From positions 1 through 64,000 of the forward strand of contig DWYM01000045.1 in assembly GCA_019118665.1 (NCBI GenBank): 64,000 nucleotides of DNA, written 5' to 3'. The notes beneath the pieces were generated by a model. It saw nothing but the letters and a program-made list of their open reading frames with translations. It did no database searches and was not told where the DNA came from. Shown in pieces: positions 20,344 to 37,906 of the stretch. The stretch's first letter is position 1. Each line of letters opens with the position of its first letter. The DNA is from Candidatus Mediterraneibacter intestinipullorum (GTDB lineage: Bacteria > Bacillota > Clostridia > Lachnospirales > Lachnospiraceae). A program made the translations under genes and the position numbers.

Positions 20344-20498
20344 ACAATAAGTGGGGAGATATTTGAAGTAGAGATTGTGCTGCTACGCACCCTTGTGGTC
20401 AAAAGAAATGTGGGAAGGGGCACACCCACCAAATATCTTTCTACTTACTAAATAAAGACAATGCATACCACCAGTCAGAAATGGCAGGTGGTATTTTG
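20344..20498 (+). ncRNA. Putative structured phage ncRNA
   Basis: 18-bp closing stem 20348-20365/20430-20447 (3 G.U), hairpin GTGC-tgctac-GCAC, H-type pseudoknot CCTT/AAGG + GTGGG/CCCAC, terminator ATACCACC...GGTGGTATTTT. Confidence 0.6.
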
Positions 20499-34366: not shown

Positions 34367-35332
34367 ATGAGTATTTGCAGAGGAATCGCAGGCGCGAGAG
34401 GAAAGAATCCTATAGGAATTTTCATTCACAATGATGCAGGGAGCGCAAATGCGAATGCAGCGTTCTACAAAGGATGGTTGCCATCACATAATCTTTCTGC
34501 CGGGTTTGCACATTACTATGTGGCGCAGGATGGAATCCTGCAGGCGGAGGACGATGCAAACCGCGCATGGCATTGTGGACAGACAGATGGAAATAACAAT
34601 TATCTGTCGATTGAAGTTTGCCAGAGCATGGGAGACTTAGAAACATTCAAGAACAATGAGGAGAAGGCGCTGCAACTTGCCGCGCAGAAATGCAAACAAT
34701 ATGGGATAACCCCTAGTACGAGCACGATTCGGTTGCACCAGGAAGTGTCTGCGACAGCGTGCCCGCATCGGTCCGTTGAGATTCATGGCGGCGCGTCTGG
34801 CGCAAAGGCATATTTTATCAAGCGCATTGGCGAGCTGATGGGAATGAACATAGATGTATCTGTTTCAATGCCTCAGGCATCTGCTGTAGCAAGCAGCACG
34901 CCAACGATTTACTTTAAGTACCGTGTTCGCACAAAAGAGGATGGATGGCTCCCGGAAGTGATCAACCTTGCAGACTACGCCGGTATCCCCGGACATGCGA
35001 TCACAGATATCTCCATCGGCGTTGACAGGGGATCGCTGTGGTATCAGGTGCACGTCAAGGGCGGCGTCTGGCTTCCGACTGTATCTGGCTACAATATTAA
35101 CGACTATAATAACGGCTATGCTGGTAACGGTCAGGTGATCGATGCTGTAAGGGTGTATTACAACACCCCGGCAGATTACGCCGCGCAGTACGGTTACCAG
35201 AAAGCCCAGTACCGTGTCAGCCCGCTGAACGGCAATTACTGGCCGTGGCAGTACGACAATGAGACTGGCGCTGGTCAGGATGGTTACGCTGGAGCGTTTG
35301 GACAAGCTATAGATCGATTCCAGCTCTTTTGA
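34367..35332 (+). CDS. N-acetylmuramoyl-L-alanine amidase endolysin
   Basis: FIHNDAGS...AHYYVAQDGILQAEDDANRAWHCGQTDGN...RLHQEVSATACPH; C-terminal binding region. Confidence 0.93.
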   Translation: MSICRGIAGARGKNPIGIFIHNDAGSANANAAFYKGWLPSHNLSAGFAHYYVAQDGILQAEDDANRAWHCGQTDGNNNYLSIEVCQSMGDLETFKNNEEKALQLAAQKCKQYGITPSTSTIRLHQEVSATACPHRSVEIHGGASGAKAYFIKRIGELMGMNIDVSVSMPQASAVASSTPTIYFKYRVRTKEDGWLPEVINLADYAGIPGHAITDISIGVDRGSLWYQVHVKGGVWLPTVSGYNINDYNNGYAGNGQVIDAVRVYYNTPADYAAQYGYQKAQYRVSPLNGNYWPWQYDNETGAGQDGYAGAFGQAIDRFQLF

Positions 35333-36847: not shown

Positions 36848-36914
36848 AATTAAGCCCGGGTTCAGCGGAACTCGGGCTGCTGTATTTCTCGGATCTGATA
36901 CTCCGGGGTGGAAT

Positions 36915-36942
36915 ATTGTATCATCTTCGTGTGTGAGGGGCA
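36915..36942 (-). promoter_or_regulatory. Sigma-A-like promoter TTGCCC-N17-TACAAT (minus strand)
   Basis: 19-bp perfect inverted copy of 1548-1566. Confidence 0.5.
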
Positions 36943-37058
36943 AAAAAGGGGCATATTTTTTATTTTATTGCCCCTTTTGCCTGGTATTCAAATTTCTGAA
37001 AGTTCGCTCTTGCGCTATTTTACGTTATGTGATAATATAATAGCTGGTCTCGGCAAGA

Positions 37059-37072
37059 CCGTCGGGGTCATT
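37059..37072 (+). repeat. attR core (ccgtcggggtcatt)
   Basis: Identical to 275-288. Confidence 0.85.
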
Positions 37073-37076
37073 GAGT

Positions 37077-37238
37077 TGCCGATGTGGCTCAATTCATGAA
37101 GATTGACCGTGTCAATCGCGGGCAGAGCGGCTGATTACAAATCGGCTGCGGTAGATATGCCGATGTGGCTCAATTCATGAAGATTGACTGTGTCAATCGC
37201 GGGCAGAGCGGCTGATTACAAATCAGCTGCCGTAAATA
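37077..37238 (+). repeat. Two 81-bp tandem tRNA-Thr-derived decoys (no T-arm, inverted anticodon arm)
   Basis: 77/81 identity between copies; share tgccgatgtggctcaatt and ggcagagc with tRNA-Thr at 37240. Confidence 0.9.
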
Positions 37239-37239
37239 T

Positions 37240-37312
37240 GCCGATGTGGCTCAATTGGCAGAGCAGCTGATTTGTAATCAGCAGGTTATCGGTTCGAGTC
37301 CGATCATCGGCT
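37240..37312 (+). tRNA. tRNA-Thr (TGT)
   Basis: gccgatg/catcggc acceptor, anticodon loop tttgtaa, T-arm atcggttcgagtccgat. Confidence 0.95.
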
Positions 37313-37340
37313 TTGTTCCTTCGGGAGCAAACATTATTTT

Positions 37341-37414
37341 GGACCTTTAGCTCAGTTGGTTAGAGCAACCGGCTCATAACCGGTCGGTCCTGGGTTCGAG
37401 TCCCCGAAGGTCCA
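37341..37414 (+). tRNA. tRNA-Met (CAT)
   Basis: ggacctt/aaggtcc acceptor, ctcataa anticodon loop. Confidence 0.92.
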
Positions 37415-37511
37415 TTTATGCCGACTCCAGGTTCGCGCTGTATCCTTACCGCGCGCGTCGGCATGTATCGCACATGAGCGTCAAAAGGACAGACGCTGCG
37501 TGCCATCGCAA

Positions 37512-37585
37512 GGCCCAGTGGCTCAGTTGGTTAGAGCGCCGCCCTGTCACGGCGGAGGTCGAGAGTTCGAGTCTCTTCTGGGTCG
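37512..37585 (+). tRNA. tRNA-Asp (GTC)
   Basis: ggcccag/ctgggtc acceptor, ctgtcac anticodon loop. Confidence 0.94.
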
Positions 37586-37625
37586 TTTCCCCCATCAGAT
37601 GATGGGGGAGTACAATTTTATATCA

Positions 37626-37711
37626 GCCGCAGTGGCGGAACTGGCAGACGCCCGGGACTTAAAATCCCGTGGGTAGTGATACCCGTACCGGTTCGATTCC
37701 GGTCTGCGGCA
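37626..37711 (+). tRNA. tRNA-Leu (TAA)
   Basis: gccgcag/ctgcggc acceptor, long variable arm, cttaaaa anticodon loop. Confidence 0.94.
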
Positions 37712-37906
37712 TTTGGATAAAGATGAGAGACGTTGATCTTACAGCGTTTCTCTTATTTTATGCTCTGATTTGTAATTTGGTACAGGAAAAGTGTATTTCA
37801 GTCATTGGAGAATTTAGTTTTACAAAGGGCTATGATATAACTGTTGAGAAGGTGATGGAAGGAAAAAGCAGTAAAAAGCGCTCTTTCTCATGCCGTTTCT
37901 GACACT

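Follow-up and report, generated by a model that had tools for sequence, protein, structure and literature searches.

Tandem units derived from the 5′ half of tRNA-Thr(UGU) form a conserved, apparently undescribed element that is most likely a leader RNA

Our analysis of a 64,000-nucleotide stretch of DNA (the window) revealed two tandem units directly upstream of tRNA-Thr(UGU) that represent a real, conserved element, apparently an undescribed one; literature searches found no description of it. The element is most likely a leader RNA of tRNA-Thr in which two folds compete. In the fuller form of this reading, which we favor tentatively and at just under even confidence, the units are a conserved, structured, non-coding leader of tRNA-Thr(UGU), probably born by template switching and capable of pairing with itself or with the tRNA, that may tune maturation of the tRNA. 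The units, their parts, and the adjoining tRNA are as follows:

37078 to 37158, + strand: unit 1 (81 bp); match to RNA model R2 at 37078-37151, 84.9 bits
37159 to 37239, + strand: unit 2 (81 bp); match to RNA model R2 at 37159-37232, 89.8 bits
37078 to 37094, + strand: S1 of unit 1, sense copy of tRNA-Thr nt 1-17 (from sequence)
37159 to 37175, + strand: S1 of unit 2, sense copy of tRNA-Thr nt 1-17 (from sequence)
37101 to 37117, + strand: D-loop hairpin of unit 1, GATTGAC-CGT-GTCAATC
37182 to 37198, + strand: D-loop hairpin of unit 2, GATTGAC-TGT-GTCAATC
37121 to 37128, + strand: S2 of unit 1, GGCAGAGC, D-arm 3′ side in sense (from sequence)
37202 to 37209, + strand: S2 of unit 2, GGCAGAGC, D-arm 3′ side in sense (from sequence)
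37130 to 37149, + strand: antisense segment of unit 1, complementary to 37263-37282 at 19 of 20 positions; resembles an anticodon-arm hairpin whose loop is inverted
37211 to 37230, + strand: antisense segment of unit 2, complementary to 37263-37282 at all 20 positions
37240 to 37312, + strand: tRNA-Thr(UGU), template and predicted partner of the units (ARAGORN, Rfam)
37263 to 37282, + strand: part of tRNA-Thr targeted by the antisense segments (3′ end of the D-arm plus the anticodon arm)

Sequence comparison showed that the two units are 95% identical, and the period of exactly 81 bp in phase with tRNA-Thr(UGU) that a preliminary description had claimed was borne out, the 18-nt sequence TGCCGATGTGGCTCAATT being present at 37077, 37158, and 37239. 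Each unit runs in the order S1, a 26-nt insert with the hairpin GATTGAC-NNN-GTCAATC, S2, the 20-nt antisense segment, and an AT-rich tail that ends in ATAT, after which the next copy begins. The hairpin, described earlier as perfect, is indeed so at both positions; with up to two mismatches allowed, its pattern has four matches in the window, a count reached by 0 of 100 window shuffles. Likewise, the antisense segments agree with their first description as an exact reverse complement in unit 2 (inverted repeat 37211-37230/37263-37282, 100%) and a near-exact one with a single G·U pair in unit 1 (37130-37149/37263-37282, 95%). The claim that the whole anticodon arm is reverse-complemented held only in part: the loop is inverted (TTACAAA versus TTTGTAA), together with a flank of a few bases, but the stem, GCTGAT/ATCAGC, is palindromic anyway. 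Because of this palindromic stem, the "inverted arm" comes down to an inverted loop and a short flank. The 5′ arm of the unit is also self-complementary; GATGTGGCTCAATT, within S1, can pair with the near-antisense stretch GATTGA-CCRYGTC downstream, and GATTGACCGTGTC of unit 1 (37101-37113) is also able to pair with S1 (37081-37094). Because the loop and its short flank are inverted and S1 is matched by a near-antisense stretch, the unit reads as a zigzag of sense and antisense pieces from the 5′ half of the tRNA.

As first described, the units carry the 5′ part of the tRNA and lack the T-arm and the 3′ acceptor strand, and by this absence they qualify as neither tRNA genes nor tRNA pseudogenes. 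ARAGORN and Rfam RF00005 did not call them, calling instead the real tRNA-Thr at 37240-37312, and in the region 36900-37850 the only Rfam 15 matches above the gathering threshold were four real tRNAs, with no family for the units. In the E. coli tyrT tandem repeats, which give rtT RNA, the repeats lie 3′ of the tRNA and contain its 3′ end; our full-text literature searches found no paper describing these repeats or rtT RNA. Like them, the units are tandem repeats in the same transcription unit, each with a piece of the neighboring tRNA. Unlike them, the units lie 5′ of the tRNA, copy nt 1-17 and the 5′ half in sense and antisense, and have a covarying fold in many genera.

Searching whole genomes of relatives for the unit, as the preliminary description had proposed, uncovered units or remnants upstream of tRNA-Thr(UGU) in many of them. 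Many species of the window's genus, Mediterraneibacter, carry full or truncated units, in arrays of one to three units or remnants that mostly lie between tRNA-Glu and tRNA-Thr (after tRNA-Tyr in G025). Named carriers are Mediterraneibacter species, Faecalicatena contorta, Ruminococcus turbiniformis, and Lachnoclostridium sp. An76. Units also occur in at least nine other genera of the Lachnospiraceae (G098, G365, G436, G1063, G987, G1065, G1007, G430, and G427), and diverged units occur in three other families of the order, f2 (G037, G107, G213, G260), f22 (G126, G247), and f8 (G168). A class-wide sample of 391 genomes gave no match beyond the order. Within the order, the exact pattern is patchy (12/392 genomes), and truncated remnants are present at L024, L026, L084, and L085. 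RNA model R2 is unusable for prevalence: it is so similar to the 5′ half of the tRNA that most of its census matches are tRNA-Thr itself, at ∼38 bits, and only higher-scoring or full-length matches were taken as units. Of the two observations that the preliminary description had set against a function, units free of constraint were not found, and relatives with an identical operon and no unit were, in several genomes of the same genus. Because of these unit-free operons and the low prevalence across the order, the unit is dispensable.

Every unit lies directly 5′ of tRNA-Thr(UGU), with none at other tRNAs of the same operons. Specifically, an upstream copy of a tRNA 12-mer was present at 37 of 70 tRNA-Thr(UGU) genes versus 1 of ∼270 other tRNA genes from the same loci; the first figure is not a prevalence, as the Thr loci were picked via the unit, and the near-zero value for other tRNAs is unaffected by that choice. 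The lone non-Thr case, a tRNA-Val in L114, adjoins an assembly gap (a run of N) and is probably a partly duplicated tRNA. One alternative is that the units are an attachment or integration scar, or a non-autonomous mobile element that targets the 5′ part of the tRNA and carries a replacement for it. The insertion lies exactly at the tRNA start and restores the tRNA, and direct copies of tRNA nt 1-17 flank the array, as this account would have it. However, neither an autonomous version with an integrase nor a recombinase at the site was found, the pattern matches are all at tRNA-Thr, with none in IMG/VR or in the phage and plasmid collections, and the prophage in the window uses another site, the 3′ end of tRNA-Glu. 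We consider such an origin improbable.

The structure of the unit is well supported. In 13 diverse Lachnospiraceae units, a tRNA-like fold comprising a D-stem, a D-loop hairpin, and an anticodon-like hairpin has 90% of cells paired, with values of 96% for the D-stem and 100% for the anticodon-like stem. Double changes occur at six pairs, in nine cells, compared to 4.0 ± 1.5 in shuffles and at most 3 in slid controls. Judged by these aligned sequences, the units show the covariation expected of a conserved structured RNA. The D-loop hairpin varies in sequence by genus with its pairing kept (ACGATTGA/TCAAGCGT, CCGATTGA/TCAAGCGG, and ATAATTGA/TCAATTAT, as well as CTTATTGAC/GTCAATAAG in G430 and GTGATTC/GAATCAC in f8), and the inserts of several genera, not of others, are more stable than shuffles. 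Within the genus, the alternative S1:A1 hairpin is 97.8% paired and shows covariation at three otherwise widely variable pairs; it is weaker in genera whose insert hairpin is longer. Some of these paired changes may be mutational, as template switching and gene conversion also yield them.

Joint folding predicted that the units can also pair with the tRNA. Folding of each unit with its own tRNA-Thr gave a mean gain of −10.7 kcal/mol (SD 4.3, n = 53), compared to −0.4 and −0.5 kcal/mol with tRNA-Met and tRNA-Asp and −1.1 kcal/mol (SD 1.3) for shuffled units; all of these are equilibrium predictions that leave aside modified bases, tertiary contacts, proteins, and kinetics, from a program (ViennaRNA) that did not recover the cloverleaf even when given the tRNA by itself. 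The antisense arm was predicted in nearly all species to occupy the anticodon or D arm of the tRNA with an equilibrium probability near 1, and in many S1 was predicted to displace the 5′ acceptor strand. The antisense part is directed at the D-arm rather than the anticodon arm in f2 and G430. Cross-pairing was predicted to become favorable after the emergence of ∼36-44 nt of tRNA. In the cells where the tRNA differs from the unit's own partner strand, the antisense arm pairs with the tRNA in 5/5, a small count. Changes in the anticodon core kept pairing in 8/8 cases, through G·U, yet nearly all possible transitions there would do so, and the antisense arm decays freely toward its outer end. 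We also considered S1 as a constrained mimic of the acceptor strand and rejected this, as comparison by eye showed changes that disrupt and changes that preserve this pairing in roughly equal numbers.

The strongest form of such an interaction would be a decoy or off-switch, in which the antisense segments lock the anticodon arm of tRNA-Thr and block its maturation. The exact 20-nt complementarity and the predicted near-complete cross-pairing both point that way. However, all detected tRNA-Thr(UGU) genes lie behind units in G107 (100% complete), G436 (98%), and G009 (92%). Because no unit-free copy was found in these three genomes, tRNA-Thr(UGU) must mature through the units, which contradicts an absolute block, and this tRNA is expected to be necessary for ACA codons. 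In addition, a stable self-fold is predicted for the units, and invasion of the tRNA is not predicted for f22_G126. We therefore think an outright block very unlikely. Of the anticodon-arm sequestration put forward initially, what stands is an antisense segment kept across genera and a predicted pairing specific to tRNA-Thr; simple sequestration does not stand, given the three genomes.

A more serious alternative is that the units are passive fold-back repeats: a palindrome made by template switching from the tRNA 5′ half, amplified and homogenized by recombination, tolerated through self-folding, and without regulatory function. Template switching generates RNA hairpins, inverts loops, and restores pairing (Monttinen & Loytynoja 2022, PMC8794818). 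The units share the signature of template-switch hairpins, with reverse-complement copies, inverted loops, and paired changes, and their inverted loop and sense-antisense layout are what such an event would leave behind; they differ in being a conserved element, most likely a tRNA leader, whereas the earlier work describes a mutation process (PMC8794818). A palindromic duplication would by itself create self-pairing as well as cross-pairing, with no need for selection. The patchy presence, decay, and truncated copies also fit passive repeats, as do the three genomes with all tRNA-Thr(UGU) copies behind units and the way that S1 tracks the lineage's own tRNA (GCCGAC in f2, CAATG in f8), as expected from recombination at S1. 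Three observations are harder to accommodate: the D-loop hairpin is not tRNA-derived, yet its pairing survives sequence change across genera; the unit is limited to one tRNA among 16 kinds examined; and the layout and the bases adjacent to S1 are common to several families. Neutral debris from hairpin inversion, an alternative raised at the outset, thus accounts well for the origin of the units (template switching, PMC8794818) but poorly for structural conservation over multiple genera. We assign the passive account a substantial share of our confidence, short of that given to the leader.

We infer a leader function in tRNA-Thr maturation, which could have arisen and could operate as follows. 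A template switch during replication would have folded the tRNA 5′ half onto itself, producing the antisense segment and the inverted loop. The array would grow and contract through unequal recombination among the 17-nt S1 copies that its members and the tRNA have in common. In the operon transcript, the unit could pair with itself, leaving the tRNA free to fold; alternatively, the antisense arm could pair with the 5′ half of the nascent tRNA while S1 captures the 3′ acceptor strand of that tRNA. Depending on the balance between these states, the operon's tRNA-Thr(UGU) would mature more slowly or at a tuned rate, but its maturation would not be abolished. A more specific proposal, which we regard as unlikely although worth stating, is a self-acting tRNA folding switch, whereby the unit provides a spare 5′ half together with its antisense and strand exchange leads to a native or a trapped tRNA, tuning the supply of ACA-decoding tRNA.

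Other leader and spacer RNAs offer partial parallels. T-box leaders of Gram-positive bacteria precede mRNAs, sense tRNA charging via the NCCA end, and have conserved motifs. Like a T-box, the units would act as a leader RNA offering a codon-like loop (ACA) to one particular tRNA; unlike a T-box, they gave no Rfam T-box match, and the gene downstream of them is tRNA-Thr itself, not one for an aminoacyl-tRNA synthetase or for amino acids. The leuZ 3′ external transcribed spacer, which also stems from a tRNA operon, is functional and binds sRNAs. The units would likewise be RNA from a tRNA operon spacer, whereas the leuZ spacer lies 3′ and has no self-tRNA mimicry. Units released by processing could similarly serve as trans-acting small RNAs, for example sponges; at most loci, tRNA genes of a single operon flank them, and stable hairpins are predicted, but the conserved complementarity points to the adjacent tRNA itself (the one target examined), and we hold this role to be highly improbable. 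It is commonly assumed that tRNA genes do without regulation by a leader and that the spacers of bacterial tRNA operons are waste. If the units are regulatory, they would represent a new mode of tRNA supply control acting on a single isoacceptor in several gut-bacterial families; if passive, they would document with unusual clarity how template switching can build a structured RNA in nature.

In the window, a prophage is inserted in the 3′ end of tRNA-Glu(UUC) (215-37072), with the 14-bp core CCGTCGGGGTCATT at 275-288 and 37059-37072, and encodes a Pfam phage integrase (377-1540, − strand) and an amidase (34367-35332). It splits tRNA-Glu, leaving an intact copy at 215-286 and only the last bases at 37059-37071. 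Thus, the array was placed 3′ of tRNA-Glu correctly as regards relatives, where this tRNA is adjacent, but no intact tRNA-Glu adjoins the units in the window. An integrative element or attachment site was considered for the units and rejected, as there is no gene in the units, which range from 74 to 110 bp, and the nearby integrase is that of the tRNA-Glu prophage. With the prophage in between, tRNA-Glu and the region upstream of it are cut off from the unit-tRNA-Thr-Met-Asp-Leu operon, and transcription of the latter would have to come from the prophage end or by read-through. A σ70 promoter scan between the prophage and the units gave no match (by eye, TATAAT lies at 37036-37041 with no good −35), and a scan for an intrinsic terminator between the units and tRNA-Thr found none. 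The prophage also contains a match to the Rfam "skipping-rope" RNA (RF02924, 58.2 bits) at 20358-20437.

A second repeat of ∼95 bp, with no Rfam match, lies in the tRNA-Met/tRNA-Asp spacer of the window (37420-37503) and has the form GCCGACTACTAAGTTCGC...AGCGTCT...AGACGCT...TAGCGC with two predicted hairpins. It is also present in L010, L016, L024, L026, L032, L064, L102, and L106, directly 5′ of tRNA-Thr in several relatives, and the 13 genomes checked have zero to three copies each, mainly in tRNA operons. In the tRNA-Asp-Val-Tyr-Thr operons L094 and L095 (G016 and G027), a hairpin-rich 78-nt spacer, TGCCGATATTAATCGGGCAGC...TCAGCTGTGAAATAT, precedes a unit-free tRNA-Thr; with TGCCGAT at its start and an antisense-like TCAGCTG at its end, it is possibly another decayed version of the unit. 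Finally, one genome of the genus has a second type of tRNA-Thr(UGU), GCCGGCTTAGCTCAGTTGG..., in a separate tRNA cluster at L090 (G013:C8), 771-843.
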